Source: an uncultured Erythrobacter sp.
GTDB lineage: Bacteria > Pseudomonadota > Alphaproteobacteria > Sphingomonadales > Sphingomonadaceae
Reading direction: 5' to 3'
NCBI GenBank assembly: GCA_947501215.1
Contig: CANMUS010000005.1
Coordinates: forward strand, 1 to 64,000
DNA length: 64,000 nucleotides
In this document: in pieces, positions 28,908 through 52,444 of the stretch
Layout of the letters: each line of letters begins with the position of its first letter
Position numbering within the stretch: the first letter of the stretch is position 1
The notes under the pieces: model-generated
Database searches by the model: none
Told to the model about the DNA's origin: nothing
What the model saw: only the letters and a program-made list of their open reading frames with translations
Program-made: the position numbers and the translations under genes

Positions 28908-28914
28908 GAACTCT

Positions 28915-30753: not shown

Positions 30754-30872
30754 AGCATTACGCCGCTCTGGAAAAGCTATAAAGTCATGGGTCGAAATAC
30801 GAACTAGCTGGCACTGTCCGTTCGGGTCGTTGGGAGGACCACCAATCTCCCCGCCAACACGATCTGGACCTG

Positions 30873-33809
30873 TTAGAAACTGAACCCCAAAGCAACACCA
30901 TATCTACGAGGATCCAAAGTGTAGATATTGGTAAAATTCCCCGAGGATGCGTCGGTCAAGTACAAGCCTGTCACCGAGCTGCTGTCGAAAATGTTCTGAA
31001 CAAATCCGCGCACGAACCAACGCTCATCCGCACTGTTCAACTGCACGATCGCGTTGGCTTGCACGAATGGCTCGATCCGGTTGACCCTGCCGTTAAAGAT
31101 ATTGCCGTATTGCTCACCAGTCAGCGCTACGTCCACGCGAGGAACCAGAGTCATGCCATTGTCGAAAGTGGCGGTGTACTGCACACCCATCGAAACCTTC
31201 ATTTCGGGGGCCTGCGGCAACTTGTTCCCTTTTAAGTTGACCTCTACGCCAGGGCTTAATACCGCAAGGCCGCTGCCCGCCGGAACGGCTCCGGCCAAGA
31301 CATCGCAAATGCTGAATGCGCCGCTTGACGCAAGATTGCCGTCGTTAGGAAATTCTTCGGGACCACGAAGACCCAGAGCTGCGTTCACTCCGGCGACGAA
31401 TGCGTCGGCCACGCCGGGGGCTGGCCCGGTTACGGCACAATTAGCACCGTTGCTGATATCCTTGATGATGACGGCATCAGGATCGCCGCCACCCGGGTCG
31501 CGCGGATTGGAGAAGAACTGGTCGCCGGCAACTTCCGCGTTGAGATAACTGAACGTCAAGTTGACAAGCCAATCGGGATCGGGCCGGATAACGGACTCTA
31601 GTTCCACACCCCAGATATCGGCATCGATAGTATCATTAACTGAGGTACGGGCGACGATGCGGCTAAGCTGCAACCCGCTATACTTATAGTAGAATGCAGT
31701 AGCGTTTAATTGCAGTGCGCCATTCGCAAAGGTATTTTTCGATCCGATTTCAAATGCGTCGATGGTTTCTGATCCGAAGCTTTCAGCCACATCGAAAACG
31801 GGCGAAAGGGGCGGGTTGATACCCCCGGATTTATAGCCCCTGGCATAAGATGCGTAAATCGAATTGTCAGGCGTAACTTCGTAGTCGAGCACCGCACGCC
31901 CGGTTATTTCATCGAAACCTACTTCTCTAAATTGCGTCAGCTGCTCACCTGGCGTACCAGGATCGGCATCAAAAAGACCAGAGGGACCGGTTAAGGGAGT
32001 GATCGGGCTGTCGAACGGCTCCCCGTCATTCGCGTAAGGATTGAGGAAGCTAATCAAGGTCGTGCGCGCAGTCACGTCTTTCTTGTCGTCGTTATACCGC
32101 AAACCTCCGGTGAAGGTCAGACGCTCGGTCAGGTCGACGTAGATCTCCCCGAACACACCGAAGCTCTCAAGATTAGCCTCGAGAGAATTGTTGCGGTACA
32201 TGGATGTTGCGAAGTAGGATGGCGGTGCACCGCCTGCCAAAGTACCAAACGATCCCAGAATGGCACTGGCGTAGTCAAGCGCGAATGAGTTTACATAGTA
32301 ACTGTTGTCGGTAGTCTTGGACTTTGCATAGATCCCTCCGAGCAGGAAATTGAATGCTCCGTCGAAATCACTGGAAAGGAGGATTTCGCCGCTCCAGGAT
32401 TCGCGTTGCTCTGAAGACCTGTCGAAGGATAGCGGCGTTTCGCCGCACAATACATTACCTTCGAACGCGCCCCTGTTCCCATCATCGTTATCGGAGGTGC
32501 ACAATACGCCCCCTGGGCCATTGGGGATGAGAGCCTCCACAATCGGGGTAAAATACGCCGACGAACCTGGCACGAACGCCGGTGCAGGTGCGGGGAGGCC
32601 GGTAGGCAAACCGTTGGCCGCGAAGCCGGACAACACGTTCAAGGCCGTAGCAAAGGCGGTACGATCCTGAATGCCCAGAAAGTAGTCCTGCCGGGAATCG
32701 ACTTCGGTGTCCTGATAAAGACCGGTTGCAGTCAGTGTCATAGCTCCGATGCGCTGCTCGAGACGGGCCTGTAGCTGCACTTCATCGGCAAAATAGAATG
32801 GAGTATACGCCGTGTTTACCGTGCGCACATCGTCGGGCTTATCGAATCCTGCAAATGCATCGGGGCCGTACAGGCTTCCCAATCCCAGTACTGAGGGAAT
32901 TCCCTGAATAGCGAAGAACTCTTGCGAACTGAGCGTTGCGCCGACTGTGGAATTGGCATTGGTGATGTCAAAGTCGCGGCGATTGTTCAGACAACCCAGC
33001 ACGCCGAGCGGGTCACGCTGGCAGGCCTGCTTTTGATTACGTAAACGGGTGTCATCTTCCCTGAAATAATATGCCATGAAGTCGAGAGTGGTATCGGCAC
33101 CGGGTTCAAAACGAAGAGAACCACGAACAGCGTACATGTCTCGGTCGTCGACATCCGAATTGTCGAAAAGGTTTGTGGTGTAACCGTCGCGATTCAGAAA
33201 GAATCCGGCTACCCGAACGCCGATAGAATCGCCGATCGGGACATTGACCACCCCCTCGGCCTTGATGCTGTTGTAATTCCCATACTCGAACTCTCCGGCC
33301 GCGCCGAAAGAACCGAGGTCAGGCTTGGCTGTCACAAGGTTGACAACACCCGAGGTAGCGTTGCGGCCGAAGAGGGTGCCCTGCGGCCCCCGTAGGACCT
33401 CAATTCGCTCAAGGTCAAAATATTCTGTTTCGAACAGCCGGGTACCAAAAAGAGGGGAACCATTGATATGGATAGCCGTCGCTGCGTCACACGTCACACC
33501 AACACAAAGATCGCCGATACCACGGATGGTGAAGGACGACCCGGTGAAGTTGCCCTTCGAAAATGAGACGTTCGGGAGCGTCAATTGAAGGTCAGCAGCG
33601 TTTTCGATCTGCTGGCTTTCGAGAGCCGTAGCATCGAAGGCACTGACCGCGATCGGCACCTCTTGCAGACTTTGAGATTGGCGTTGGGCCGTCACGATGA
33701 TTACGGATCCTTGGGGTTCCGCCTCATCAGTTGTGGAATCCTGCGCTAAAGCCATCTGCGGCCAAGCCAAGATGGCCGAAGTGGCGAGCACCATCGCTCT
33801 CAGTGTCAT
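30873..33809 (-). CDS. TonB-dependent receptor
   Basis: The product has 978 residues. A signal peptide (MTLRAMVLATSAILAWPQMALA) is followed by a putative TonB box (SVIIVTAQRQ), then the plug (PIAVSAFDATALESQQIENA ... SFTIRGIG ... LRGPQGTLFGRNATSGVVNL) and a long beta barrel ending in YGVALGFSF with a terminal Phe. It imports a bulky or hydrophobic ligand across the outer membrane using TonB energy. The plug resembles the large sphingomonad receptors that accompany catabolic clusters. It lies at the end of the minus-strand catabolic operon but behind a terminator, so it has its own promoter in 33810-33865. The ligand is unknown. Confidence 0.92.
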   Translation of the reverse strand: MTLRAMVLATSAILAWPQMALAQDSTTDEAEPQGSVIIVTAQRQSQSLQEVPIAVSAFDATALESQQIENAADLQLTLPNVSFSKGNFTGSSFTIRGIGDLCVGVTCDAATAIHINGSPLFGTRLFETEYFDLERIEVLRGPQGTLFGRNATSGVVNLVTAKPDLGSFGAAGEFEYGNYNSIKAEGVVNVPIGDSIGVRVAGFFLNRDGYTTNLFDNSDVDDRDMYAVRGSLRFEPGADTTLDFMAYYFREDDTRLRNQKQACQRDPLGVLGCLNNRRDFDITNANSTVGATLSSQEFFAIQGIPSVLGLGSLYGPDAFAGFDKPDDVRTVNTAYTPFYFADEVQLQARLEQRIGAMTLTATGLYQDTEVDSRQDYFLGIQDRTAFATALNVLSGFAANGLPTGLPAPAPAFVPGSSAYFTPIVEALIPNGPGGVLCTSDNDDGNRGAFEGNVLCGETPLSFDRSSEQRESWSGEILLSSDFDGAFNFLLGGIYAKSKTTDNSYYVNSFALDYASAILGSFGTLAGGAPPSYFATSMYRNNSLEANLESFGVFGEIYVDLTERLTFTGGLRYNDDKKDVTARTTLISFLNPYANDGEPFDSPITPLTGPSGLFDADPGTPGEQLTQFREVGFDEITGRAVLDYEVTPDNSIYASYARGYKSGGINPPLSPVFDVAESFGSETIDAFEIGSKNTFANGALQLNATAFYYKYSGLQLSRIVARTSVNDTIDADIWGVELESVIRPDPDWLVNLTFSYLNAEVAGDQFFSNPRDPGGGDPDAVIIKDISNGANCAVTGPAPGVADAFVAGVNAALGLRGPEEFPNDGNLASSGAFSICDVLAGAVPAGSGLAVLSPGVEVNLKGNKLPQAPEMKVSMGVQYTATFDNGMTLVPRVDVALTGEQYGNIFNGRVNRIEPFVQANAIVQLNSADERWFVRGFVQNIFDSSSVTGLYLTDASSGNFTNIYTLDPRRYGVALGFSF

Positions 33810-33865
33810 ATAGCATCCCTTCCCATCTCTTCAGTGCGACGATAATTGGCTCCGCCGCTTACTGC

Positions 33866-33893
33866 AAAATGGGGCGACCTCGAGGGTCGCCCC
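33866..33893 (-). terminator. Intrinsic terminator of the minus-strand catabolic operon
   Basis: GGGGCGACC at 33871-33879 and GGTCGCCCC at 33885-33893 form a 9-bp stem with a 5-base loop, followed on the minus strand by ATTTT. It lies downstream of the hydrolase gene and before the TonB receptor. The stretch 33894-34228 holds no supported gene. Confidence 0.65.
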
Positions 33894-34228
33894 TTAGTCT
33901 GTGGAGAGGAGAGGGAAAGAATTAGCCCAATCCCCGTCCATGGGCATATACGTCCGCGTGATATTAGTAAAGCGCCTTATCTTTTGACCCCATGGGCCAC
34001 GATCCAGATCGCACGCGGAGTGAACGTTTGCTAAAGATCAGCAATGGTTGGCGCGCTAAGCGAGTTGCTCCCGATAAAGCTTTTGCCCCAGCTGGCATCG
34101 AGACCAACGAAGCGTTCGTCGTGCCGACGGCGACAATGGTTCGGATATAGTACAAGATGAATATGAACGCCCTTTGCCCCCATCTCGCTGGCCTCTGACC
34201 AGGAACCAGCCTCTTAGTATGGGGGATC

Positions 34229-35200
34229 TCAGAGGCTCCAAAAGGCCAGTACCGCCCGAAGCGCAGCGACGAACGCGAGCGGCTGATCCAGCATGAGATG
34301 ATGGCGTGCATCGGGCACTGCAACAATTGGTATCTTTCCCCCTCCCAGTTCCCGGATATAGCGGGCGGAATCGCGATCAAAGAGCTGACTTTTCTCGCCG
34401 TACACAATCGCTTTGCGCCCGGGCGCATCGACCAGCCTCTGGCCTACTGTCAGCCATTCGTCGGGCTTGTTGCTGCGCCGGAACACTTCGGGAGAAAACT
34501 TCCATGTCCACTCCTCGCCATCGCGGCGGAGAGAGTGATAGGCCATGTAATCCATCAGGAACGGCTCACCAACTGCCTGCGGCGGCGACAGGATATACCT
34601 CTCGCGCGCCGCTTCGTAGGTGGGGTAGCGTCGCACCGGTTTGTCAGGATTACCCGACCCGGGGCTCGATCTGCCCATGGTCCAGTATTTCTCCAGCTTT
34701 TCGGGCCGCATCACCATGAGATCGCAGACAATAACGCCGGCGAAGGCATCCGGCGATTGGGAAACGGCGGTCAGCGCTGCACCCGAGCCGAAGCTATGGG
34801 CGATGATCGTCGGTCTGCTTCCATCCGCAAACAAATCGAGCGCTTCGCTGATCTCGACAAATTCCTTTCCCCGCGCAGCTATATCGGCCACGCCGCGCAT
34901 CTCGCTATCGCCCATACCGGCCAGATCGAACGCCACCACGTCGTAGTCTTCGGCAAGGTACGGTGCGATGAAGGCAAAGCAGCGGGCATGGGCGAGAAAA
35001 CCGTGAGTCATGAGCAATTTGGGCCGGTCACGCCTGCCCCAGCGAAGATAATGCACCCGCGCGCCACCAACCTCTACGAAGCCTTCCTCACGGGGCACGC
35101 TCAGCGCCCAGGCGAACCATTCGGGTATATCCGCCCCGTCGCCGGCCCATACGGGATCAATATCTGTTGACCCGTCGTGGATTGGTTTCATTTCATTCAT
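34229..35200 (-). CDS. Alpha/beta hydrolase (putative esterase)
   Basis: The product is about 323 residues from the ATG at 35200, which overlaps the stop of the monooxygenase gene. It is an alpha/beta-hydrolase fold: the oxyanion region MTHGFLAHARC, FDLAGMGDSEM, the nucleophile in IIAHSFGSG (Ser near residue 136), and the catalytic His in DARHHLML near the end. It is the last gene of the catabolic operon, directly after a Baeyer-Villiger monooxygenase. Hydrolases in this position commonly cleave the ester or lactone made by that enzyme, which is the likely job here (inference from context). Confidence 0.85.
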   Translation of the reverse strand: MNEMKPIHDGSTDIDPVWAGDGADIPEWFAWALSVPREEGFVEVGGARVHYLRWGRRDRPKLLMTHGFLAHARCFAFIAPYLAEDYDVVAFDLAGMGDSEMRGVADIAARGKEFVEISEALDLFADGSRPTIIAHSFGSGAALTAVSQSPDAFAGVIVCDLMVMRPEKLEKYWTMGRSSPGSGNPDKPVRRYPTYEAARERYILSPPQAVGEPFLMDYMAYHSLRRDGEEWTWKFSPEVFRRSNKPDEWLTVGQRLVDAPGRKAIVYGEKSQLFDRDSARYIRELGGGKIPIVAVPDARHHLMLDQPLAFVAALRAVLAFWSL

Positions 35201-36834
35201 TTCGGCGCAGTCTCCATACCGGATAGTGTATTCCTGATAAAACCACGATAATCGTGCCGTGCGACATCGTGGCATAGATCGGCGTAACCAGATACGCTGG
35301 GGAAATTGATCAGTTGTCGGGGTTTGCCGGGAATATTGGCGCCCATGTACCACGATTCAGCCTTGGGGAAGAGCGTCATCGACCCTACTTGGGCGACCAT
35401 ATCGGTCCAGCTTCGCTCGGCCAGCGCATCGGCTTCGAAAAGGCCGATCCTGTTATCGCGCAGCCAGATCAGGAAATCGCAGATCCAGTCACCCTGGATT
35501 TCGGCGCTTGTCGGACCGTTGGAAAAGCCTGAAGGGCTGAGCGGGCCGTAGGCGAACAGCATGTTCGGAAATTGGGCGACGGCCATGCCCAGATAGGCTT
35601 TGATCTCACTCTTCCATGCTTCTGCCAGCGCCAGCCCACCGCGGCCGGTGATGTTCATGTCGATGAGCCCGCCACGACCGGCATCGAAGCCGGTCGCGAA
35701 GACAATGAGATCGCACGGGATCATGCCAGTGGCTGTTTCTATCCCGGCCTCGGTGACGCGAGTGATCGCGGTGTCGTTCAGATCGACCAGCGTCACATTG
35801 TCTTGTGCGAAGATCTCGTAATAATTCTGTTCGAGCGATGGTCGCTTGGTCCCGAAGGGATGTGGCGGCTCATCGGGAGCGAGCTTCTCGGCAATGGTCG
35901 GGTCGCAGATCCGCTCGCGCACCTCGTCACGCCAGAACTCGTAGGCGTGGCGATTGGCGTCCTCGTTCGTCAGTATGTCAGCGAAATTATGATACCAGAA
36001 GCGCAACCCTCCTCGCTGCCACAAATCCTCGAAATGCGTAGTCCGCTCTTCCTCGGTCACAGCCAGGGCCGAGATGTCCAGCGATTGGCATTCGAAACCG
36101 CCACTTGTCGTAAGCCTTTTCTGGAAGACAGCGGGATATTCGGATTTTTCGCGAAGCTGACGATCAGCGTCCAGTTTTTCCTGCCGCATGGGAAGGGCGA
36201 GAATCGGGGTTCGCTGAAAAAGCGTCAGCTGCTCCGCACAGCTTGCCGCCTCCTGCGCCACCTGTACGCCGCTGGCACCCGTGCCGATCAGGGCGATCCG
36301 GCGGCCGGAAAGGTCGATGCCTTCCTGCGGCCAGCGGGCGGTATGGCACCATTCGCCTTCGAAATCGCTAAGGCCCGGGATATCGGGAATGTAGGGTTTC
36401 GAGGCGAACCCCAGCGCCGGCAAGAGGAAACGCGCGCTTACTTTTCCGCCATCGTCGAGCTTCAATCGCCAGCAGGCGGTGTCTTCATCGAACGGCGCGC
36501 TTTCGACCCGTGTTTTCATTCGCATTGCCGGCCAGAGGTCGAGCGTATCGCAGACGTGGAGGAAATAGGCGCGCAGTTCTTCCCAGCCTGGAAATCGTTC
36601 GCTCCACGTCCAGCTTTTCCATACTTCCGCAATGGAAAATTCGTAAAGTGGAACCTGGGAATCGACCCGTGCTCCCGGATAGCGGTTCCAGTACCAGATT
36701 CCGCCCGGCTGCTCCGCTGCGTCTACCAGCAGAACATCGAACCCCGCCTGACGCAGCTTGTAAAGCAGGTATATTCCGCTGAACCCGGCCCCGACGATTA
36801 CGACATCATAGTCAGGAGGGGGCGAATGGCTCAC
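35197..36834 (-). CDS. Type I Baeyer-Villiger flavin monooxygenase
   Basis: The product has 545 residues. The FAD-binding GAGFSG is at residues 15-20, then GGIWYWNRYPGARVD. The Baeyer-Villiger fingerprint FEGEWCHTARWP lies at residues 158-169, and a second nucleotide motif GTGASG at 184-189 binds NADPH. The length fits cyclohexanone or phenylacetone-type enzymes. It converts ketones to esters or lactones with O2. The start is a GTG overlapping the stop of the acyl-CoA synthetase; the downstream hydrolase overlaps its stop. The substrate is not readable from sequence. Confidence 0.93.
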   Translation of the reverse strand: MSHSPPPDYDVVIVGAGFSGIYLLYKLRQAGFDVLLVDAAEQPGGIWYWNRYPGARVDSQVPLYEFSIAEVWKSWTWSERFPGWEELRAYFLHVCDTLDLWPAMRMKTRVESAPFDEDTACWRLKLDDGGKVSARFLLPALGFASKPYIPDIPGLSDFEGEWCHTARWPQEGIDLSGRRIALIGTGASGVQVAQEAASCAEQLTLFQRTPILALPMRQEKLDADRQLREKSEYPAVFQKRLTTSGGFECQSLDISALAVTEEERTTHFEDLWQRGGLRFWYHNFADILTNEDANRHAYEFWRDEVRERICDPTIAEKLAPDEPPHPFGTKRPSLEQNYYEIFAQDNVTLVDLNDTAITRVTEAGIETATGMIPCDLIVFATGFDAGRGGLIDMNITGRGGLALAEAWKSEIKAYLGMAVAQFPNMLFAYGPLSPSGFSNGPTSAEIQGDWICDFLIWLRDNRIGLFEADALAERSWTDMVAQVGSMTLFPKAESWYMGANIPGKPRQLINFPSVSGYADLCHDVARHDYRGFIRNTLSGMETAPK

Positions 36835-38441
36835 GAGGCCCCGGCACCCGCTTTCGCGATGTCTTTAGCCGTAGTATAATCCGCCTTGCCGTTTGACGCG
36901 CGCAAGGCGGTTTGCGTTGGGCAAATCGCCTTGGGCGTTTTGTAACCTGCCAGTTGCTGGCGCACGTGATCCTTGATCGCTTGCGCGTCGAAGTCCGCAT
37001 CCTGGGTCAAATGCACCACAGCGGTCACCGCTTCGCCCCATTTTTCGTCAGGCACCCCGACGACAAGCGCGTCGGCAATGGCGGGATGGGTTTTGAGCAC
37101 TTCCTCCACCTCCTCGGGGTAAACCTTTTCACCTGCGGTGTTGATGCAGACGCTGCCGCGGCCCAGCAAGGTCAGGCTTCCATCGGATTCCACCCGGCAC
37201 CAGTCGCCCGGGATGGAGTAACGCACGCCATCGATCGTCCTGAAAGTCTTGGCCGACTTTTCCGGGTCCTTGTAGTATCCTGTGGGGATTGCGCCCTTGC
37301 GGGCAATAAAGCCGGGCACGCCGCTCCCCGCCTCGACCTTCCGGTCGTTCTCGTCGAATACGTCGCAAAATTCCCCGATCCCGAATTTCGCGGTGTTGGT
37401 GCCGCCCTGTGCGGTCGTCACCGACAAGCCGTAGCCCAGCCCTTCCGAAGCGCCAAAACTGTCCATGAGGATGACCTGGGGGATATGTTTGCACAGGCCC
37501 GCCTTTACCTGTTTACTCCACATGACGCCGGACGAGATGATCGAAATCAGGCTGCTCGTGTCCCAGCGCTTCGGGTGGGCGTCCAGCGCCTGCAGCATGG
37601 GTTTGGCAAAAGCGTCACCGACAATGGCGATGCTCTGCACCTTGTGCTGGTCCACCGCATCCCACAATTCTTCCGCGTCGAAGGATGGATCGGACAGCGT
37701 GACGATGGCCCCGCCCGACATGAGCGTGCCGATAGCAGTAATGAACCCGGTTCCATGCATCAGCGGGCACGCCGGCAAAGTGATGCGCGCAAGCTCGCCC
37801 TGCTTCACCAGGGCCACCATTTCCTCCATGGTCTGGGGAACCGGACCCAGCAGCTTTTGCGCGTCGAGCTGAGCCTTGCGCATATCATCGTGTCGCCACA
37901 TCACGCCCTTGGGCATGCCGGTGGTACCGCCTGTATATATGAACAGCAGGTCATCGGGAGAACGCTCGATATCGAGAGGCGCGCCGTTACCTTCTACAAG
38001 TTTTTCGTAAGGAAGCGCGAAGGAAGCGATCTGCGAAGCATCGCCGATTTCTACAAATGTATGAACCTTGGTCAACCGTTCCTTCAGTTCAAGAATGCAG
38101 TCGCGGAACTCGGAACTGTAAACAATTACCTCGCTATCGGAATCGTCGAAGATGTAGAAAACCTCCTCGGGACGGTAACGATAATTGATGTTCACGTGCG
38201 TGAGGCGGCCCTTGAAGCACGCGGCCATCAATTCCCCGTATTCGGAACGGTTGCGCATGTAGAAGGCTATCTTCGCCCCGTCGCCTGCACCTTGCGCGCG
38301 CAGATTGCGCGCCAAATTGTTCGAACGCTTCGACATTTCGGGCCAGCTAATGATCCGGTCGCCGTGAATCAGCGCCGGAGCATCTTCCGGGACCGCAGGT
38401 TCGATTGCATCAAGGATGTCGCCAAGGTTCCAGTCGATCAC
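36831..38441 (-). CDS. AMP-binding acyl-CoA synthetase
   Basis: The product has 536 residues. The adenylation P-loop YTGGTTGMPKG is at residues 169-179. Later motifs include DSFGASEGLGYG (A5), PGDWCRVESDGSLTLLGRG (A7), and a C-terminal domain with EKVYPEEVEEVL and the acyl-adenylate Lys in NGKADY. It activates a carboxylic acid as a CoA thioester. It resembles FadD-type ligases from steroid and isoprenoid catabolic operons. It is coupled to the monooxygenase gene by an overlapping stop and GTG start, and follows the acyl-CoA dehydrogenase genes by 63 bases. Confidence 0.92.
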   Translation of the reverse strand: MIDWNLGDILDAIEPAVPEDAPALIHGDRIISWPEMSKRSNNLARNLRAQGAGDGAKIAFYMRNRSEYGELMAACFKGRLTHVNINYRYRPEEVFYIFDDSDSEVIVYSSEFRDCILELKERLTKVHTFVEIGDASQIASFALPYEKLVEGNGAPLDIERSPDDLLFIYTGGTTGMPKGVMWRHDDMRKAQLDAQKLLGPVPQTMEEMVALVKQGELARITLPACPLMHGTGFITAIGTLMSGGAIVTLSDPSFDAEELWDAVDQHKVQSIAIVGDAFAKPMLQALDAHPKRWDTSSLISIISSGVMWSKQVKAGLCKHIPQVILMDSFGASEGLGYGLSVTTAQGGTNTAKFGIGEFCDVFDENDRKVEAGSGVPGFIARKGAIPTGYYKDPEKSAKTFRTIDGVRYSIPGDWCRVESDGSLTLLGRGSVCINTAGEKVYPEEVEEVLKTHPAIADALVVGVPDEKWGEAVTAVVHLTQDADFDAQAIKDHVRQQLAGYKTPKAICPTQTALRASNGKADYTTAKDIAKAGAGAS

Positions 38442-38504
38442 GTATTAATTCCTCTCTCCTTGGTGGCCACGATTTTGTCGGTAGCGTGCGCCTAATTCAT
38501 CGTC

Positions 38505-39596
38505 TCATGCGACCTGCGTCCACCCCTGCAAGGCCGCTGCTTCGGCCCGGACCGCTTCGGGACTTCCCAGAACCTGGCGGTCGAAACCGATTCGCTTGAA
38601 CCAGAAATGCAGACCTAGGAGATCGGTAAAACCCATCCCCCCATGCACCTCGGTTGAGGTTCGGGCGACAAAACGGTGGACTTCGCCCGTATGTGATTTG
38701 GCATGGCATGCCACCAGCGAAGCCTCGTCGGGCGTCGCATCGAACGCATGGGCGGCATACCAGACCAGCGAACGGCATGGTTCATGGCGGGCAGCCATTT
38801 CCGCGCACATATGCTTGACCGCCTGGAAGCTGCCGATCACTCGTCCGAACTGTTCGCGCTGCCCGGCATAGTCGACCGCTTTTTCGATCATAGCCTGGCC
38901 CGCACCGAGGCTATCGGCGGCCAGGAGCACCCGGCCGGCGTCCCGCAGGCGCCTGACTGTGGCCCCACCATCGTCCGCGAGAGCCTCGCCCGCTACGCCA
39001 GAAAACCGCAGCTCCCCTACGCTCCGGGTGCGGTCGATCGTTTTGAGAGCAACCTTCTCCAGACCCGCAGCATCGCCAGCTACGAAGTGCATACGACCGG
39101 CGGTATCGGCTACCAGAAACGCGTCGGCTTCCAGGAAGTCGAGCGCGAACAAAGCCGTTCCGTCGAGCTTTGCGCCGTCGAAGTCCACGCCTGCCCGGTC
39201 CCGGATCTCCACCGTTTCCGCGATCGCGACGGCGATTTGCGCCTCGCCCTTCGCTATCCTCGGCAGCCAGTGCGCCTTCAACTCCTCGCTACCGCCCTGT
39301 GCCAGCGCAAGGGGTGCCAGTACATGGGCACCGATAAAAGGCACCGGCGCGACGGCATAGCCGAGCTGCTCGGCCACAGCGGCGGCATCGAGCATTGTCA
39401 TCCCGAGCCCGTCATGTTGCTCGGGAACCATCATTCCCCAAATGCCGATTTCGCCCAGCGCCGAACGCACGTTGTCGCTGAAGGGAACCGAGCCCTCCGC
39501 GCATTCGCGCACATGATCGAGCGGACAAGTATCAGCAAGAGTGCGGCTGATCGCGTCGCAGAGCATCTCTTGGTCTTGCGAAAGTCCGAAATCCAT
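38505..39596 (-). CDS. Acyl-CoA dehydrogenase, small-subunit type
   Basis: The product has 363 residues. It has an N-terminal helical domain (MDFGLSQDQEMLCDAISRTL), a degenerate middle beta domain and a C-terminal domain with QREQFGRVIGSFQAVKHMCAEM and EVHGGMGFTDLLGLH. These features fit the partner subunit of two-gene (alpha2beta2) acyl-CoA dehydrogenases known from steroid side-chain degradation. Its start overlaps the stop of the larger partner (TGATG). The middle domain is divergent, so FAD contacts probably come mainly from the other subunit (inference from the family). Confidence 0.88.
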   Translation of the reverse strand: MDFGLSQDQEMLCDAISRTLADTCPLDHVRECAEGSVPFSDNVRSALGEIGIWGMMVPEQHDGLGMTMLDAAAVAEQLGYAVAPVPFIGAHVLAPLALAQGGSEELKAHWLPRIAKGEAQIAVAIAETVEIRDRAGVDFDGAKLDGTALFALDFLEADAFLVADTAGRMHFVAGDAAGLEKVALKTIDRTRSVGELRFSGVAGEALADDGGATVRRLRDAGRVLLAADSLGAGQAMIEKAVDYAGQREQFGRVIGSFQAVKHMCAEMAARHEPCRSLVWYAAHAFDATPDEASLVACHAKSHTGEVHRFVARTSTEVHGGMGFTDLLGLHFWFKRIGFDRQVLGSPEAVRAEAAALQGWTQVA

Positions 39597-40846
39597 CAGG
39601 CGGCTCCCTTATTCTGCCCGCTTGCAACGGCCGTCGCCTGTTCGACGGCGGGAGGCGTTGCGAACTTGGGTTCGCGCGGCATTTCCAGCCCGCGTTCGGC
39701 GATGATGTTCTTCTGGATCTGGGCGGTGCCTCCACCGATGATCAGACCAAGCTGGAACATGTAGTTCCACTGCCAGGCACCGTCTTCGCGCTCGCGCTCG
39801 CTTCCGTGATAGAGTATGCCCATCTCGCCCATTGCGTCGATCGCGAGCGCGGAAATCTGATGGGCGAGCTCACAGCTCTGCAGCTTCACGACAAGTTTCG
39901 CCATGCCGCCGGCATCCCCCCTAAGGCTGTTCGACAGGATGCGCATGCCGTTGAATTTCATCGCCGCGACTTCGGCTTGCAATGCAACCAGCCGGTCACG
40001 CAGAACGGCGTTGTCCATTGCGCAACCCTGGCCGATGCGTTCTTTTTGCATCAGCCTGACCAGCGCCTGGAGCCGGTTTTCCAGTGCATCGGGGTCGCCC
40101 AGCATGCCACGTTCATGGCCCAGTGTGGCATTGGCCACGTACCACCCCTGCCCGCGCTGCCCGACGATCTGATCCAGGGGAACCCGCACGTCGGTAAAGA
40201 ACGTTTCATTGAACTCGGCATGACCGGTCATGGTCTTGAGTGGTCGGACCTCGATCCCTGGTGTGTCCATCGAGAAGATCAAGTAGGAGATGCCGCCGTG
40301 CTTGGGCGCGTCCGGTTCGGTCCGAACAAGGCAAAAGATCATGTCCGCCTGCTTGGCCGTGCTGGTCCAGATCTTCTGTCCGTTGATGACAAAGTCGCCA
40401 TTTTCGACGCGGGCGCTGGTCTTGAGCGCGGCGAGGTCCGATCCCGCTCCAGGTTCCGAATATCCCTGACACCAGACTATCTCGCCATTTAGGGTCGGCT
40501 CGATCCATTGCCGTTTCTGGGCTTCGGTTCCGAGTTCCAGCAGCGTGGGAACGAGCATGGAAATGCCCTGGTTCGCAAGGCCTGCGGGGATGCCAGCGCG
40601 CGAAAATTCCTCGGCAATGATCCGCGATTTCAGGATGTCCGGCTCGGCTCCGTATCCGCCGTATTCCTTGGGAATCGTACGCGCCGTGTAACCATGCAGG
40701 ATCAACAGCTTTTGCCATTCGACGGCTTCGGGGGAAGGGCGCGCGGCACGGCCTTGGCCATCGGGTGCGCGGTGACCGTGGGTTTGCAGGAACTGGCGCA
40801 CTTCCTCGCGAAACGCGTCATACTGGGGTCCGTAGTCGAGATCCAT
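39596..40846 (-). CDS. Acyl-CoA dehydrogenase, large-subunit type
   Basis: The product has 416 residues. WCQGYSEPGAGSDLAALKTSA and INGQKIWTSTAKQADMIFCLVRT are the acyl-CoA and FAD loops. GHERGMLGDPDALENRLQAL and the C-terminal GGGTAQIQKNIIAERGLEMPRE are typical of the large partner in heteromeric acyl-CoA dehydrogenases. It introduces the alpha-beta double bond in an acyl-CoA, passing electrons to ETF. It lies six bases after the DUF35 gene and overlaps the small partner. A second such pair is at 47.1-49.4 kb. Confidence 0.9.
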   Translation of the reverse strand: MDLDYGPQYDAFREEVRQFLQTHGHRAPDGQGRAARPSPEAVEWQKLLILHGYTARTIPKEYGGYGAEPDILKSRIIAEEFSRAGIPAGLANQGISMLVPTLLELGTEAQKRQWIEPTLNGEIVWCQGYSEPGAGSDLAALKTSARVENGDFVINGQKIWTSTAKQADMIFCLVRTEPDAPKHGGISYLIFSMDTPGIEVRPLKTMTGHAEFNETFFTDVRVPLDQIVGQRGQGWYVANATLGHERGMLGDPDALENRLQALVRLMQKERIGQGCAMDNAVLRDRLVALQAEVAAMKFNGMRILSNSLRGDAGGMAKLVVKLQSCELAHQISALAIDAMGEMGILYHGSEREREDGAWQWNYMFQLGLIIGGGTAQIQKNIIAERGLEMPREPKFATPPAVEQATAVASGQNKGAA

Positions 40847-40852
40847 CTTGGT

Positions 40853-41329
40853 CTATCCTTCTGCGCGCGCGATCGCGACGGGTCGGAATACTGGCAGGCG
40901 AAAATCTTCGGAGATCGGCTCGAAATCCAGCGTGACCGGCAGATCGAGCTCAAGCTCGTCGAGCGCGCAATCGACCAGCCGGGTTGCCATGCGCACTCCC
41001 TCCTCCAGTTCCACCACCGCAGCGATGAAGGGAATCTCGCCGGCGAAGGCGGGATGCAGTGCCTGATGGGTCACCGTCCAGGAAAACAGCGTGCCATTGC
41101 CGGTGCTACGCTCCCACGACCATTCAGGAGAACCGCATCGGGCGCACATATAGCGCGGCAAATGCCGAAAACTGCCGCATCCTTCGCACTGCTGGAAGTA
41201 AAGGTTGCCGTCCTGACACCGGTTCCAGAATTCCTGCTCCACCGGATCCTGCGGGCGCGGCTTTGGCTTGGCTGGTGCGGCCTGCGCCGAGGGGCGCATC
41301 TTGGGCGGCAGATCTTTCTCGTCGCTCAC
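40853..41329 (-). CDS. DUF35 OB-fold/zinc-ribbon acyl-CoA-binding protein
   Basis: The product has 158 residues. [19 protein letters not shown] forms a four-Cys zinc ribbon near residues 50-68, followed by an OB fold ([23 protein letters not shown]). DUF35 proteins partner thiolase-fold enzymes such as Ltp2 aldolases and are needed for their activity. Its GTG start overlaps the stop of the thiolase-fold gene, supporting a complex. Pro/Lys-rich residues precede the ribbon. Confidence 0.88.
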
Positions 41330-42498
41330 GCAAACCTCCTCAAAATCGCTATACTGCCGTCACCCAGATCGCCCCAGCCGGTCACCAGGCCGGTCTGGGC
41401 GCCTTCGACCTGCCGCTCCCCACAATCGTGGCGCAACTGACGCACCGCCTCGACGACATGGTTCAGTCCCCAAACATGGGCCTCGCTCAGCAGGCCGCCA
41501 TGGGTGTTGACGGGATAGCGCCCGCCCAGCTCGATCTGGCCATTCGCGACGAACTCTGCCTGTCCACCTGGTTCGCAATAGCCCAGGGCCTCCAGCTGAA
41601 GGAGAACCACGTAGGTGAAGCAGTCGTAGATCTGCAGAAAATCCATGTCTTCGCGATCGACCCCCGCCATTTCGAACGCGCGCGGCGCGGCGTAGCTCAG
41701 GCCGATCTTGAAGGGGTCGGGACGCGAAGGGATATCGTCGGCGGGGTAAGGATGCCCTTCAGCCGCACCGGCGATGCTCACGGGAACATGCGGCATGTCC
41801 CTGGCGCGGTCTATTCGCGAAACCACGACTGCGCATGCCCCGTCAGTCTCCAGACAGCAATCGTAGAGGCGAAAGGGTTCGGATATCCAGCGCGCGGAAT
41901 GGTAGGTTTCGGCATCCAGTTCCCGGCCATAAGTGAAGGCCTGCGGATTCATCTGCGCATGGCGACGGCACGCCAGTGCAACGGCCGCCATCGCTTCCGG
42001 GCCGATATCGTAAATTCGGGAGTGCCGGGTGGCGAGCCAGGCATACATCTGCACCGGCAGGAACACGCCATACGGAATGTAATAGCCTTGGATCGTATTC
42101 GTCAGGGTGTTCATGTTCATCGGCCGCGTCGGCGGTGCGCCAGGCTTGGGCCGCAAGGCGGAATAACCGTTCCACCCGAGCGTCACCAGCACATGGTCGC
42201 ATAAGCCGCTGGCAATTGCCATCGCGGCGTTCTGGAGTGCCGTGGTAGGGCTCGCCCCGCCCATGTGGACCGTAGAGGCATAGCGCAGAACTTCGATACC
42301 GAGGTTAGCCGCCATCTCTTCCGAGGTGGTGTAGATCGGCGGAGGAACCATGCCGTCGATATCCGACGGCTTCAGCCCTGCATCTGCTATGGCTTTGCGC
42401 GATGCTTCCAGCATCATGTCGACCGCGGTTTTCTCGGTGCCTTTCACGAAAGCGGTTTCGCCCACTCCGGTGATGGCCGATTTGTCGCTTAAGCTCAT
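41326..42498 (-). CDS. Thiolase-fold (SCP2/Ltp2-like) protein, possible retro-aldolase
   Basis: The product is about 390 residues from the ATG at 42498, which overlaps the coq4-like stop. The fold is that of thiolases ([22 protein letters not shown] ... [14 protein letters not shown] ... [22 protein letters not shown]). Where thiolases carry the nucleophilic Cys it reads [16 protein letters not shown], with no Cys. The same loss is known in Ltp2, a steroid-degradation aldolase that works with a DUF35 partner; here the DUF35 gene follows directly. It may therefore cleave a beta-hydroxyacyl-CoA by retro-aldol reaction, giving a ketone and a short acyl-CoA. The family is seen; the reaction is inferred. 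Confidence 0.82.
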
Positions 42499-43187
42499 GC
42501 CTGCCTGACCGCCTGGTAATCGCGTTCGAGCTGTTCGGAAAGAGCGCGCACCCTCTGATAGGTCTCCGGCGGACGCAGTCGCAACTCGCGGCGGACATCC
42601 TCCAACGGACGATCGAGATTTTCTTCCCAGTAGAAGGTGGTCAGATCGGCTGCAGCCCGGCCCCGGCGCCACGCTTCAAATGCAGCGCGCGCCACTGGCA
42701 ACTGGGCAGCTTCCAGTTTCATCTTGGGAATGCCGACGCCCACGATGAAAGCGATCCCGTGATTATAGAATTGCGCGTTTCCGAAGGACAGCACGCACAA
42801 TTCGCCCAGTGCGTCCCTGCCGTATCCGGTGACGACATGAAACAGGTCATGCGAATCGCGAAGGCGCCGACGATAGAGGGAAACATCGGGGTCGCCGAGG
42901 TCCTCCAGACCTCCGGCCTCGCTGGCTTCCGCCAGACCTTCTGCTGTCAGACCCTCCCCGTAAACAAAATCGAGGTAGGCTCGGCCAAGCGTGCCAGACG
43001 CACAGGTCGCAAGGCGTTTGCGATCGCACAAGGTTTCAAGTAGGTCGGCCCGGTCGGAAGCGATACGCCGCCCATCGCTCGACTTCATGAAGCGATTGAA
43101 ATTCCGATAATAGGAATTGCCCGACAATGCCTTGACGATACGGAACACCTGCGCCGTATCCTCCTTGTCGGCAATCAACTGCCTCAT
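42495..43187 (-). CDS. Coq4 family protein
   Basis: The product has 230 residues. [20 protein letters not shown] carries the HDxxH-x11-E metal motif of Coq4, near residues 112-128. Coq4 is needed for ubiquinone synthesis; bacterial paralogues also occur in catabolic operons, where their role is unclear. It overlaps the thiolase-fold gene by ATGA, so it belongs to the operon. It may bind a hydrophobic intermediate (inference). Confidence 0.87.
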
Positions 43188-43267
43188 TGCCCCAGCGCTC
43201 TGAGAGGCTCTACGGGGCGGCGCAATTCATGACCTTTGGCGTAAGCCATCTTCTTGCCTCCTGCGCT

Positions 43268-44410
43268 TCACTTGTAGATACCAGCGGACGCCAACGCCTT
43301 CTCGGCTCCATCGACCAGGTCGCGCATCACTTCGGCGGCAGGCCGGATCGAATCGATCAGGCCGATGCCTTGCCCCGCGAAGCCGGGGATGACATCCTTG
43401 CGCTCGGCCTTGATCCCGGAGGCCATGACCGGGCCGGAGATCATCGACTGATAGGGCATCGGCAGAGGTTCCTTTCCGGCCTGCACCCAGGCGTCGGCCC
43501 ATTTGTTCCGGATCATGCGCGCCGGTTTGCCGGTAAGCGATCGACTAACGACCGTATCGGTATCGCCGCTTTCGGTGATCGCCTCTTTCTGGAAGCGCTC
43601 GATGCCCGCTTCCTCGGTCGCGAGAAATGCCGTGCCGACCCACGCGCCCTCTGCCCCCAGCATCATCGCAGCGGCAACACCCCGGCCATCCGAGATACCG
43701 CCGGCCCCAAGGACAGGAACACGATCGCCAACGGCGTCGACCACCTGGGGAATCAAGGAAATAGTCCCGATCGGCGAGTTGTGACCTCCGCCATCGTGCC
43801 CTTGCGCGACGATCATGTCGATGCCCGACCCGACGACCTGTTCGGCGTGCTTGACCTTGCCGATCACCGCCATGACCTTGGTGCCATTGGCATGGAGCCG
43901 ATCCATCCAGGGTTCAGGATTGCCAAGGCCGGCAGCATAAACCGGCACCTTTTCCTCGATCACCACTTCCATCTGCGCCTCAAAGAATTCCTTCGAGAAC
44001 AACTGCGGGCCGCCCTTGCCCATTTCAGGCGCGCCCGCCGCCCGCATGGCGGCGGCAGCATCGACCTCCGGAAGCTCTTCACGATCCATGAAGTCGCGCG
44101 CGAACTGCTGATATTCACCCATCAGATCCATGGGATTTTGGGGTGCAGCACCGCTTTGAGGGGCAGAGCCGCGCCTGACCGACGCGGGGAGCAGCGTATC
44201 GACACCGAAAGGTTTGTCGGTCAATTCCCGGGTCTGGCGAATCCAGTCACGCAACTGATCGGGCGAACACGCCGCGGCACCCAGGACCCCGAGCCCGCCG
44301 GCATTCGAAACCGCAGCCGCCAGCGCCGGAACGCTCGCTCCGCCCATCCCGGCAAGCAGGATCGGGTACCGGATCCCCAGCATTTCGCATATTCGGCTCT
44401 TCAACGCCAT
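43268..44410 (-). CDS. Nitronate monooxygenase / 2-nitropropane dioxygenase-like flavoprotein
   Basis: The product has 380 residues. It is an FMN TIM barrel: ICEMLGIRYPILLAGMGG at the N-terminus, AQGHDGGGHNSPIGTISLIP around the catalytic His, and LGAGGISDGRGVAAAMMLGA for phosphate binding. It ends in DGAEKALASAGIYK. The family oxidises nitronates, but many members in lipid and hydrocarbon operons act as NADH:quinone reductases or enoyl reductases. GAGAGGAAG precedes the start. An 80-base gap separates it from coq4. Confidence 0.87.
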   Translation of the reverse strand: MALKSRICEMLGIRYPILLAGMGGASVPALAAAVSNAGGLGVLGAAACSPDQLRDWIRQTRELTDKPFGVDTLLPASVRRGSAPQSGAAPQNPMDLMGEYQQFARDFMDREELPEVDAAAAMRAAGAPEMGKGGPQLFSKEFFEAQMEVVIEEKVPVYAAGLGNPEPWMDRLHANGTKVMAVIGKVKHAEQVVGSGIDMIVAQGHDGGGHNSPIGTISLIPQVVDAVGDRVPVLGAGGISDGRGVAAAMMLGAEGAWVGTAFLATEEAGIERFQKEAITESGDTDTVVSRSLTGKPARMIRNKWADAWVQAGKEPLPMPYQSMISGPVMASGIKAERKDVIPGFAGQGIGLIDSIRPAAEVMRDLVDGAEKALASAGIYK

Positions 44411-44460
44411 TCTTCCTCTCCAGCCACTTGCCTAAACGCACACTCAAACTATTGAAAATT

Positions 44461-45189
44461 CTACAGCTGCCCCCACCGCACCCGCTGCGAGACCAGCTCG
44501 GGACTGCGCTCCGAAAGATAGACGGCAGAGCCGGCCACCAACCGGCTCATTGCTTGACGGGCCGCGGCGCTGTCGCCAGTCCGCACTGCCTCGAGCACCC
44601 GCACCAGAAACTTCATCTGCACCGCCCGTTCCTGTGCCGAATATCCCAGCGAATGGGAAAACTCGCGGGTCAACAGATGCATCGCAGAGGTCAGCAAACC
44701 GAACAGCGGATTGCCGCTCGCCCAACCCAACAAGTCGTGAAATCTGCGATTAAGTTCCTCGAATTGATCAGAGGCTTCATGATGCCTCAATTCCGCCAGA
44801 CACCCTGCCAACGCGCTGAGATCAGCGGTAGTTGCACGCTGGGCTGCATACCCTGCGACATCGGGAGCAATTGCTTCGCGCAATTCAAGCAAACCACGCA
44901 AATCGGCTTCCATGAAATGCAGAATCAATGACAAACTGCTTGCAAAATCGCCGGTCTGCGGACGGGCTACGACGGGACCTCCACCACGGCCGAGCTGGAG
45001 ATGGATGACCCCTTGCAATTCCAGGAACCGCAAAGCCTCCCGCAAAGTTGCGCGCGCAACCTCGTAACGCGCGAGCATTTCATCCTCGCGCGGAAGCCTG
45101 TCACCCGGGTTATGGCGACCCGCCTCGATGTCCCTCACGATGCTTTGCGCAAGAGAAAGGGCACGCTTGGCCTTCTTCATCGCCGGCAT
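44461..45189 (-). CDS. GntR/FadR-family transcriptional regulator
   Basis: The product is about 242 residues from the Met at 45189; a Met at 45180 is also possible. An N-terminal winged helix (SIVRDIEAGRHNPGDRLPREDEMLARYEVARATLREALRFLELQG) is followed by a helical FadR C-terminal domain (LLELREAIAPDVAGYAA ... NRRFHDLLGWASGN) that usually binds an acid or acyl-CoA. It diverges from the CYP153 gene across about 200 bases, and heads the minus-strand catabolic genes. It is the obvious regulator of both sides. Confidence 0.9.
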   Translation of the reverse strand: MPAMKKAKRALSLAQSIVRDIEAGRHNPGDRLPREDEMLARYEVARATLREALRFLELQGVIHLQLGRGGGPVVARPQTGDFASSLSLILHFMEADLRGLLELREAIAPDVAGYAAQRATTADLSALAGCLAELRHHEASDQFEELNRRFHDLLGWASGNPLFGLLTSAMHLLTREFSHSLGYSAQERAVQMKFLVRVLEAVRTGDSAAARQAMSRLVAGSAVYLSERSPELVSQRVRWGQL

Positions 45190-45390
45190 CCGCCACTCAT
45201 CAGCACACCCGCACCTCTCGAATAAACAGTATAAGGATATTAGCAAACCTTCGCTGGATCGGCACACTATCCGATGGGATTGGTGTCTGCAAGGGACTAA
45301 AAGAGTATACGATTTATTGACTGCACGAGATGTCTCCCTTAAGGATGACTGAAGGCCGATCAGGCCTGAGATGTAGAAGGAATAGTTCTT

Positions 45391-46653
45391 ATGGACAGCC
45401 AGATCGCCGAGCCGGATGCCGCGGCGAGGATCGCGTCAATTCCGATCGAGGAAATCGACGTGGCCCGGCCAAGCCTGTTTCAGAACGATACCATCGGTCT
45501 ATTTTTTGACAGGTTGCGCGCCGAAGAACCTGTCCACTACTGCCGCGAGAGCTATGTCGGCCCTTACTGGTCCATTACCAAGTTCGACGACATCATGTCG
45601 GTGGACACCAATCATAAGGTCTTCTCTTCGGAAGCGAAGCTAGGCGGAATTGCAATCCAGGACATGCATTCGGTGGAAGGCGCGCTCGAACTTGAAATGT
45701 TCATAGCGATGGACCCGCCCAAGCACGATCAGCAGCGCAAGGCGGTGACTCCGGCAGTGGCTCCGTCCAACCTGCAACTGCTCGAGCCGATCATCCGCAA
45801 GCGCGCGGGAGAGATTCTCGATGAACTCCCGATTGGCGAAGATTTCGACTGGGTGGATAAGGTTGCGATCGAGTTGACGACGATGACGCTGGCAACCTTG
45901 TTTGATTTCCCTTGGGAGGAGCGGCGCAAGCTGACGCGCTGGTCCGATGTAGCAACTGCGGCACCTGAAACCGGGATCGTCGAATCCTACGAGGCGCGGC
46001 GCGAAGAACTCATCGGTTGCGCGATGTATTTCAAGACTCTGTGGGACGAACGGATAAACGAGGAGCCGAAGAACGACCTCATCTCGATGATGGCTCATTC
46101 TCCCGCCACGCGCGACATGCCGTTCCTCGAGTTTCTCGGCAATCTTATGCTGCTGATCGTCGGTGGAAACGACACAACACGCAATTCCATCAGCGGCGGC
46201 GTGCTCGCCTTGAACCAAAGCCCGGACGAGTACGCGAAACTCGACGCGGATCCTTCGCTCATTAGCAAAATGGTTCCGGAAATCATCCGTTGGCAGACCC
46301 CCCTCACTCATATGCGCCGCACCGCGCTGGAAGATTGGGAGATCGGCGGCAAACAGATCAAGAAGGGCGACAAGGTGGTGATGTGGTACCTGTCAGGCAA
46401 CCGCGACGAGAGTGCTATCGAGCGCGCGGACCAGTTCATCATCGACCGCAAAAATCCGCGCCATCACCTCTCATTCGGCTATGGCATTCACCGCTGCATG
46501 GGAAACCGGCTCGCGGAACTGCAGCTGCGGATCATCTGGGAAGAAATTCACAAGCGCTTTTCCCGGGTCGAGGTTACAGGTGAACCAGAGCGTCTTTTTT
46601 CAAACCTCGTCCGCGGAATCACCAGGCTGCCGGTGCGGCTCCGCGCCCGCTGA
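45391..46653 (+). CDS. CYP153-family cytochrome P450 hydroxylase
   Basis: The product has 420 residues. The I-helix oxygen site is VGGNDTTRNSISGG (near residue 258), followed by EIIRWQTPLTHMRRTA with the ExxR. The heme ligand loop is HLSFGYGIHRCMGNRLAELQ (Cys near residue 369). TPLTHMRRTALEDWEIGG, GNRDESAI and NPRHHLSFGYGIHRCMG closely match the CYP153 family, which hydroxylates the ends of alkanes, cycloalkanes and some terpenes. AAGGA lies 9 bases upstream. A 2Fe-2S ferredoxin follows; no ferredoxin reductase is in the window. Confidence 0.92.
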   Translation: MDSQIAEPDAAARIASIPIEEIDVARPSLFQNDTIGLFFDRLRAEEPVHYCRESYVGPYWSITKFDDIMSVDTNHKVFSSEAKLGGIAIQDMHSVEGALELEMFIAMDPPKHDQQRKAVTPAVAPSNLQLLEPIIRKRAGEILDELPIGEDFDWVDKVAIELTTMTLATLFDFPWEERRKLTRWSDVATAAPETGIVESYEARREELIGCAMYFKTLWDERINEEPKNDLISMMAHSPATRDMPFLEFLGNLMLLIVGGNDTTRNSISGGVLALNQSPDEYAKLDADPSLISKMVPEIIRWQTPLTHMRRTALEDWEIGGKQIKKGDKVVMWYLSGNRDESAIERADQFIIDRKNPRHHLSFGYGIHRCMGNRLAELQLRIIWEEIHKRFSRVEVTGEPERLFSNLVRGITRLPVRLRAR

Positions 46654-46681
46654 CTCTCGAGATCGAAATGCGGAGTTCAAG

Positions 46682-47008
46682 ATGATCAAAATTACGTTCG
46701 TGGCTAGCGATGGTGAGCGACGGGAGGTCGAAATAGAAGAAGGCGAGACAGCCAGGGAAGCGGCGCTATACAATGACGTGCCGGGTATCGATGGCGATTG
46801 CGGAGGGGTATGTGCTTGCGCGACCTGTCATGTGCATGTCGATCCCGAATGGATCGACAAGGTGGGTCGGCTTATGCATGATGGAATGGAGGCCGACCTC
46901 TTGCAGTTCGCCGAAGGCACCACTGAATACAGTCGCCTTGCCTGTCAGATTCCGATGAAGCCGATGCTGGATGGATTGGTTCTTCACCTACCCGAACAAC
47001 AATACTGA
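46682..47008 (+). CDS. Adrenodoxin-type 2Fe-2S ferredoxin
   Basis: The product has 108 residues. CGGVCACATC gives the C-x5-C-x2-C cluster ligands and the fourth Cys is in RLACQIPM. This is the vertebrate/adrenodoxin-type layout that donates electrons to class I bacterial P450s. It starts 29 bases after the P450 stop, as usual for CYP153 operons. GGAG precedes the start. Confidence 0.93.
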   Translation: MIKITFVASDGERREVEIEEGETAREAALYNDVPGIDGDCGGVCACATCHVHVDPEWIDKVGRLMHDGMEADLLQFAEGTTEYSRLACQIPMKPMLDGLVLHLPEQQY

Positions 47009-47076
47009 CGGAGGGATCCTCGTCCCCGTAGCCTACATTCTTATCTGTCTTTCCTTGATTCTTCGAGAAAACACCC

Positions 47077-48288: not shown

Positions 48289-48306
48289 GAGAGGGGAGCA
48301 AGGACA

Positions 48307-49377: not shown

Positions 49378-49543
49378 AAACCTGCATGTAGTGACCTGCA
49401 TGGCATTTTTGCCACATGCTTGTCGACAATGTGAAATAATCCGTCAATTCATCTACCAAGTCTTGAAATGAAACGCGCTTATCGGCATCGTTTCTAACAT
49501 CGACTAGTGCCTAGGATGGGGCACATTCTTAGAGGAGAGGCAC

Positions 49544-52276: not shown

Positions 52277-52294
52277 ACTTACTCGCTAATTGCA

Positions 52295-52332: not shown

Positions 52333-52444
52333 CGAACTTTTATTTGCTCACGACTAGGTGGCGTCCGAACAAAAGTTCCGTGTGCTCAATATCGTCGATG
52401 ATGTGATAGGGAGAGGCCGGCAGCGGTGTTCGCTGCAGGAATCC

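Follow-up and report, generated by a model that had tools for sequence, protein, structure and literature searches.

A conserved operon with near-identical copies in several genera pairs a candidate thiolase-fold aldolase with a Baeyer-Villiger monooxygenase in an uncultured Erythrobacter

Ten minus-strand genes running from about position 45189 down to 34229 form an operon in the window analysed here, which spans the initial 64 kb of contig C5 (CANMUS010000005.1; 190 kb) from the 3.04-Mb genome of an uncultured Erythrobacter sp. (GCA_947501215.1). Neighbouring genes of the operon overlap by 1-4 bases or are separated by gaps of 6-80 bases, and a divergent plus-strand arm carries, in this order, a CYP153 gene, a ferredoxin gene, a second pair of acyl-CoA dehydrogenase (ACAD) genes and a TonB receptor gene (Table 1). 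A previous reading made from the sequence alone (hereafter the sequence-only reading) had described a minus-strand operon with a CoA ligase, a two-subunit ACAD, an Ltp2-like protein with a DUF35 partner, a Baeyer-Villiger monooxygenase (BVMO) and a hydrolase, diverging from CYP153. All these genes are present on the strands given, to which must be added a regulator, a nitronate-monooxygenase-like (NMO-like) flavoprotein and a Coq4-like protein that had not been listed. We consider it reasonably probable that the locus is a mobile, co-regulated catabolic module, which would degrade a hydrocarbon by an aldol cut followed by a Baeyer-Villiger step. As listed, the reading frame of the regulator begins at 45267; a Met at 45189 or 45180 is preferred as its start because an operator-like site occupies 45223-45240. 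Probable starts of the Ltp2-like protein and of the hydrolase are 42498, within the listed frame, and about 35200, judged from the reading frame.

Table 1. Features of the 64-kb window, with the operon and its divergent arm first
Feature	Position	Strand	Basis or remark
FCD-domain GntR-type regulator, operon gene 1	44461..45189	-	Pfam FCD 7.5e-21, GntR 1.8e-13; start predicted
Nitronate-monooxygenase-like flavoprotein (NMO/FabK family)	43268..44410	-	Pfam NMO 4.8e-72
Coq4-like protein, optional	42495..43187	-	Pfam Coq4 6.9e-22
Thiolase-fold aldolase candidate (Ltp2/Sal-like)	41326..42498	-	Pfam, PDB matches, residues, tree
Stand-alone DUF35/OB-fold partner	40853..41329	-	Pfam OB_ChsH2_C + zf-ChsH2; zinc-ribbon motif
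Acyl-CoA dehydrogenase, large subunit	39596..40846	-	Three ACAD domains; best PDB chains 4x28_A, 6wy8_B
Acyl-CoA dehydrogenase, small subunit	38505..39596	-	Middle-domain match absent
Acyl-CoA synthetase (CoA ligase)	36831..38441	-	NF005863/PRK07798, 698 bits vs cut-off 543
Type I Baeyer-Villiger monooxygenase	35197..36834	-	Fingerprint FEGEWCHTARWP
Alpha/beta hydrolase, candidate esterase or lactonase for BVMO product	34229..35200	-	Pfam Abhydrolase_6 1.2e-19
Operator-like site 1 (TAAACAGTATAAGGATAT)	45223..45240	+	Shared palindrome-like pattern
Operator-like site 2 (AAAAGAGTATACGATTTA)	45299..45316	+	Shared palindrome-like pattern; TTGAC -35-like box next, before CYP153
CYP153-family P450, candidate terminal hydroxylase	45391..46653	+	Best PDB match CYP153A7, 622 bits
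2Fe-2S ferredoxin	46673..47008	+	Pfam Fer2; start predicted inside listed frame 46412-47008
Second ACAD pair, large subunit	47077..48288	+	Domain search
Second ACAD pair, small subunit	48307..49377	+	Domain search
TonB-dependent receptor, candidate substrate uptake	49544..52276	+	Domain search
Second TonB-dependent receptor, downstream of hydrolase	30873..33809	-	Domain search
Part of putative integrative element	24397..64000	.	Would extend on contig to ~140892
Conjugation genes (weak TrbC-like, TraE, TraK, TrbI-like)	60905..63999	+	Domain search
RND efflux	2125-7890		Domain search
P-type ATPase	8738-10732		Domain search
MobA/MobL	15780-18053		Domain search
Serine recombinase	22779-24446		Last ~50 bases reach into putative element

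The large and small ACAD subunits of the operon are predicted to form a single two-subunit enzyme: their genes are adjacent, the small protein has no middle-domain match, and both have two-subunit relatives, the PDB match list of the small subunit having 6wy8_A in third and 4x28_D in eighth place. The best chains for the large subunit, 4x28_A and 6wy8_B, belong to what we take to be two-subunit ACADs, the former presumably a steroid side-chain enzyme. Both subunits score well under the pimC and pimD cut-offs. For the BVMO, the closest solved structure is PDB 6jdk (680 bits across 525 residues), presumably from Parvibaculum lavamentivorans. The type I fingerprint FxGxxxHxxxW(P/D) occurs in the window protein as FEGEWCHTARWP and is exact in 69 of 75 near full-length relatives, L027, L065-L068 and L078 being one letter off. 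The P450 scores 622 bits against CYP153A7 and 261 against the CYP125 ancestor, and is assigned to CYP153.

The best PDB matches of the thiolase-fold protein are 6ok1 (1.8e-70), 4u4e (5.3e-63) and 9myr (3.3e-47). We took 6ok1 as TcLtp2 because its Tyr344 aligns where the study of the aldolase Sal places it (PMC12329534), and 9myr as CtSal on account of its YDCY and an even offset in the numbering; both entries are titled only as lipid-transfer proteins. Catalysis relies on Tyr302 and Cys304 in Sal and on Tyr294 and Tyr344 in TcLtp2, and Gly replaces the nucleophilic Cys of thiolases in Sal, making thiolysis impossible for this enzyme (PMC12329534). The window protein carries YDCF at codons 291-294, and the Tyr-Asp-Cys-Phe motif is found in all 85 aligned close rows, among which L064 and L130 are one contig. 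The same 85 rows have Gly at the position of the thiolytic Cys and His at the position of TcLtp2 Tyr344, and Tyr replaces the His that opens the HDCF motif of thiolases. The equivalents of the catalytic Tyr and Cys of Sal are thus combined with Gly at the thiolase nucleophile, while the Ltp2 residues (YDHF and Tyr344) and those of SCP2-type thiolases (nucleophilic Cys and HDCF) are absent from 85/85 rows. From its residues the protein should act as an aldolase, and a thiolase role is unlikely because of the invariant Gly. The sequence-only reading had proposed an Ltp2-type aldol cleavage: this activity is favoured, the Ltp2 family is not.

In a tree of 30 hand-chosen rows, the window protein falls in a 16-row group (support 97/94) whose sister is the group bearing TcLtp2 (99/96, with a 4-row core at 100/100); the two are joined at 99/95. 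Sal lies in another branch (90/72), although its row is long and its own position unsure. By this tree, the window protein is in a clade of its own beside Ltp2, in neither the Ltp2 nor the Sal family. With Sal-Shy, the bile-acid aldolase/hydratase of Comamonas testosteroni, it shares two residues of the YDC motif, Tyr and Cys, and the Gly at the nucleophile position (PMC12329534), whereas it has His where Sal has Gln352, and its DUF35 partner carries a four-Cys ribbon (C-x2-C-x10-C-x2-C) where Shy has Cys3His.

The gene set is more than a chance neighbourhood. When genome contigs were scanned with the Ltp2-like protein, 281 places were confirmed, of which the best 80 were used; together with plasmids L102-L104 and genome region L131 they make 84 close loci, with an Ltp2-like identity of at least about 79%. 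Presence was scored in these 84 loci within 12 kb of the Ltp2-like gene, counting for each gene only loci long enough, and gene order was inspected for 21 of the 80 genome loci as well as for the annotated plasmids. DUF35 is present in 84/84, both ACAD subunits in 80/80 each, the ligase in 77/77, the NMO-like gene in 82/82, the regulator in 78/79, CYP153 in 75/78, the BVMO in 73/75 and the hydrolase in 70/73. By comparison, among 14 control loci whose Ltp2-like proteins are 34-59% identical, the BVMO was found in one (L105) and CYP153 in none. The Coq4-like gene (40/84) and the second ACAD pair, whose large subunit has a copy at 70% identity or more in 29/84, are therefore optional. The BVMO match in L070 covers just 72 residues, and L131 has no hydrolase and an IclR-type regulator. 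The control locus L105, on a plasmid of Rhodococcus sp. DMU1, brings together within one 29-kb stretch a 58% identical aldolase, DUF35, a crotonase, two BVMO-like genes (36%) and a hydrolase; several transposases lie among these genes. In L021 (Pacificimonas), the NMO-like, Coq4, Ltp2-like and CYP153 genes are 94-98% identical to those of the window and the BVMO and small ACAD genes 77%, a mosaic that suggests recombination within the operon.

The operon genes are under purifying selection. The dN/dS ratio was computed for 14 genes against six relatives, and usable comparisons with L021, L022, L028, L039 and L045 gave about 0.02-0.17, many dS values being above 1. Excluded were the hydrolase in L021, L022 and L039 (stop, the assumed start being too far upstream) and in L028 (negative dS), the BVMO in L028 (stop) and the GntR gene in L021 (stop), L039 and L045 (negative dS); coq4 had no match in L022 and L045. 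The hydrolase estimate comes from L045 (and L017), because its other values were excluded. Ratios against the nearly identical L017 range from 0.0 to 0.97 and derive from very few changes, and those of the second ACAD pair, acdL2 and acdS2, against L021 (0.59 and 0.64) are cross-matches to the other ACAD pair.

As the sequence-only reading had noted, no hydratase gene lies in the window, and the 9 crotonase-family, 4 MaoC and 4 FAS1-DH matches of the genome are all outside this contig, the FAS1-DH matches largely coinciding with the MaoC ones. The MaoC-type hydratase for which it suggested searching the rest of the genome was set aside: none of the MaoC or FAS1-DH matches is on this contig, and some related loci carry crotonase-type enzymes. 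In L082-L084 and L104 (a Sphingobium cloacae plasmid), a crotonase gene diverges from the regulator in the usual place of CYP153, which in L104 sits farther down the operon; in L131, a crotonase gene adjoins the NMO-like gene; and in L105 and L132, one lies within about 2.5 kb of a 58-59% identical aldolase gene. Wherever the operon brings a hydratase of its own, the enzyme is thus of the crotonase type. No crotonase of at least 35% identity was found in the stretches examined around the remaining genome loci of the 80. No orthologue of the L104 crotonase was found in the window genome (relatives at most 41%). Around three of its MaoC/FAS1-DH places and one of its crotonases, no close homologues of the operon were found, these surroundings giving only a 32% crotonase match (L145) and 24-38% ACAD and crotonase matches (L147). 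As a side observation, the Ltp2-like gene match of the distant genome L092/L132 contains one TGA.

Joint control of CYP153 and the operon is supported by two predicted operator-like sites, 76 bp apart, between the divergent promoters. Among 41 distinct regions from 75 loci, which differ by at least one base only so that near relatives are counted repeatedly, 29 have their best-scoring pair of sites at a distance of 75 or 76 bp, and the other 12 have a different best spacing, some about 138-144 bp. A degenerate pattern derived from the two sites has three matches in the 64-kb window, all at this place (one site on both strands), for a chance mean of 0.17; these scores are biased, as the palindrome had been picked visually in the very alignment that was scored and the pattern was built from the window's own sites. 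Classical FadR/GntR operator patterns had no match in the window.

As to mobility, the operon DNA is 98.6-99.99% identical across 8.3-21.2 kb in 16 loci (L005-L020), recorded as Qipengyuania, Erythrobacter, Actirhodobacter, Pelagerythrobacter, Parapontixanthobacter, Sphingopyxis and a Sphingomonadales bacterium. The rpoB gene was sought in 15 genomes; besides that of the window these were 14 others, and the near-identical DNA is present in 11 of the 14. In nine of these 11, rpoB is 81.9-96.3% identical in a single alignment, against 98.8-99.99% for the 15-kb operon region; in L013 and L019 it aligned in two pieces at 84-90%. In L022, L023 and L039 the operon has diverged too (74-88%). The distribution is sporadic, with the Ltp2-like gene found at an E-value of 1e-150 or better in 17 of 298 genomes of the family and at 1e-60 in 12 of 398 in a phylum-wide draw, the window's own genome included in both; 5 of 169 plasmid records with a match reach 80-90% identity. 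One genome of the family (G442) holds two Ltp2-like copies, 100% and 94% identical to that of the window.

Five genomes share a left end with the window, their matches to it stopping at 24392-24395. The 16-base sequence at this place is found again, one base longer, at 140892, where tRNA-Leu(CAG) has its 3' end and is adjoined by a tyrosine-integrase gene (Arm-DNA-bind/Phage_int_M). From this integrase at a tRNA, the flanking repeats and the conjugation genes, we infer that the operon lies within an integrative and conjugative element (ICE) of about 116 kb at tRNA-Leu(CAG). Against a single unit, two of these genomes match the window only to 58030 and 62113, and the other three match to about 79 kb, two of these three having a second piece at about 104-113 kb.

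We propose the following pathway, in which the reactions and the substrate are read from the genes. CYP153 and its ferredoxin would oxidise the end of a hydrocarbon chain, and host enzymes would convert the alcohol to an acid, which the CoA ligase would activate and the two-subunit ACAD would turn into a 2-enoyl-CoA. A host crotonase, encoded by the operon itself in a few relatives, would hydrate this intermediate to a beta-hydroxyacyl-CoA with a branched beta carbon, and it is this branching that would block formation of a beta-keto acid. The Sal/Ltp2-like protein and DUF35 would then perform a retro-aldol cleavage to acetyl-CoA (or propionyl-CoA) and a ketone, which the BVMO would convert to an ester or lactone, opened in turn by the hydrolase. 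We favour as substrates alkylcyclohexanes (cyclohexylacetyl-CoA giving cyclohexanone, then caprolactone) or beta-branched chains, 3-methyl-branched or phenyl-substituted, yielding methyl ketones and then acetate esters. The chain set out by the sequence-only reading is right in outline and partly supported: it fits the gene set and its conservation, the operator-like sites and the active-site residues, with corrections as to which family the aldolase belongs to, which type of hydratase takes part and how new the chemistry is.

Further observations favour this pathway. In L131, a zinc alcohol dehydrogenase gene immediately precedes the aldolase gene, and in Dietzia CN-3 good growth on the branched alkane pristane needs CYP153 (PMC12472514). 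Several others weigh against it. The BVMO and the hydrolase are among the less conserved proteins (identity 54-100% and 57-100%), L026 lacks both, with transport-like genes following the ligase, and L082-L084 lack CYP153. A crotonase gene occurs in just 5 of the 84 close loci (stretches mostly 10 kb on either side), so that the remaining loci, among them the window, must draw on a hydratase encoded outside the stretch; in the genome of the window, the crotonase closest to that of L104 is 41% identical. The scheme leaves no role for the NMO-like gene, present in 82/82 loci, or for the Coq4-like gene. The His at the position of the TcLtp2 acid Tyr344 makes the proton donor uncertain, and Sal, which shares the other residues, gives an aldehyde and not a ketone (PMC12329534).

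An alternative explanation is that two pathways are encoded together, in which CYP153, the BVMO and the hydrolase would oxidise alkanes subterminally (alcohol to ketone to ester to alcohol and acid) and the ligase, the ACADs and the aldolase-like protein would process the resulting acids. The BVMO gene is almost the last of the operon and is absent in L026; n-C28 induces a BVMO and an esterase in Thalassolituus oleivorans, which was read as subterminal oxidation (PMC6304351), and in Dietzia CN-3 CYP153 and one of two BVMO genes are up with hexadecane and with pristane (PMC12472514). However, a domain search found no alcohol dehydrogenase gene in the operon of the window, unbranched acids need no aldolase-type protein, and BVMO and aldolase candidate occur together in 73 of 75 loci, and we regard this explanation as unlikely. 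We give still less credit to a steroid or terpenoid side-chain pathway, in which ACAD, hydratase and aldolase would strip the side chain of a polycyclic compound and the BVMO would act on a ring ketone. The dehydrogenase, DUF35 and aldolase do resemble the igr-type set, ORF40-44 of C. testosteroni TA441 (PMC12502768), and the best PDB matches of the aldolase candidate and of the large ACAD are Ltp2 (6ok1) and 4x28_A. Yet the P450 is a CYP153 and not a CYP125, the operon has no MaoC hydratase, and the HsaD marker NF045632 is below its cut-off in the genome (best 71 bits vs 400), a single marker that is weak evidence, as the control genomes were also all below and it may miss proteobacterial forms. 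That the thiolase-fold protein works without any retro-aldol step, for instance by forming with DUF35 a thiolase or acylase of the BbsAB or PhlBC kind, is equally hard to credit: its PDB matches do include two proteins with DUF35 partners, the thiolase subunit 7pxp and the 2,4-diacetylphloroglucinol protein PhlC (5m3k), but Gly at the thiolytic Cys and Tyr for the HDCF His, in 85/85 rows, and the TcLtp2 clade as nearest relative argue against it.

Parts of the pathway proposed here have precedents. In Arthrobacter CA1, a member of another phylum, cyclohexylacetate was reportedly found by Ougham and Trudgill in 1982 to pass through 1-hydroxycyclohexylacetyl-CoA to cyclohexanone and acetyl-CoA, followed by a Baeyer-Villiger step, which is the same route logic. 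An acid-to-ketone-to-BVMO/esterase route is not new, because it is known from Comamonas testosteroni KF-1, whose 4-sulfophenylbutyrate degradation is said to include CoA and aldol steps. In this strain a branched acid is converted to a ketone, an ester, and then phenol and acetate, and the genes of the BVMO (SAPMO) and esterase lie side by side, framed by IS1071 (PMC3746432). The KF-1 3-(4-sulfophenyl)butyrate pathway thus has the same acid-ketone-ester order and the BVMO and esterase in common with ours, whereas its substrate is an arylsulfonate. The igr-type ChsE1E2-ChsH1H2-Ltp2 modules of M. tuberculosis and C. testosteroni TA441 likewise co-encode a two-subunit ACAD, a DUF35 protein and an Ltp2-family aldolase (PMC12502768); in the window, by contrast, DUF35 lacks a MaoC domain, there is no hydratase or, in relatives, a crotonase, and the operon adds the BVMO, hydrolase and CYP153.

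What may be new is that this gene set forms a mobile unit, and so may be the clade of the aldolase; no description of either the operon or the clade was found in the open-licence literature, at the level of titles and the beginnings of abstracts. Going further, we suggest only tentatively that the Ltp2-like/DUF35 pair represents a third thiolase-fold aldolase clade, for non-steroid alicyclic or beta-branched acyl-CoAs, and that the operon supplies the missing genes of an aldol/Baeyer-Villiger route that leads from alkylcyclohexanes through cyclohexanone, spread in Alphaproteobacteria by an ICE and by plasmids. If true, thiolase-fold aldolases would reach beyond steroids. Alkylcyclohexanes are oil components, and cyclohexaneacetic acid is among the products detected when bacteria degrade them (PMC10837267). 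A gene set removing such acids would supply markers of this activity and would also show how it moves between genera.

Left of the putative element, positions 1-24396 of the window form a second mobile-looking region, with the efflux, ATPase, mobilisation and recombinase genes listed at the end of Table 1.

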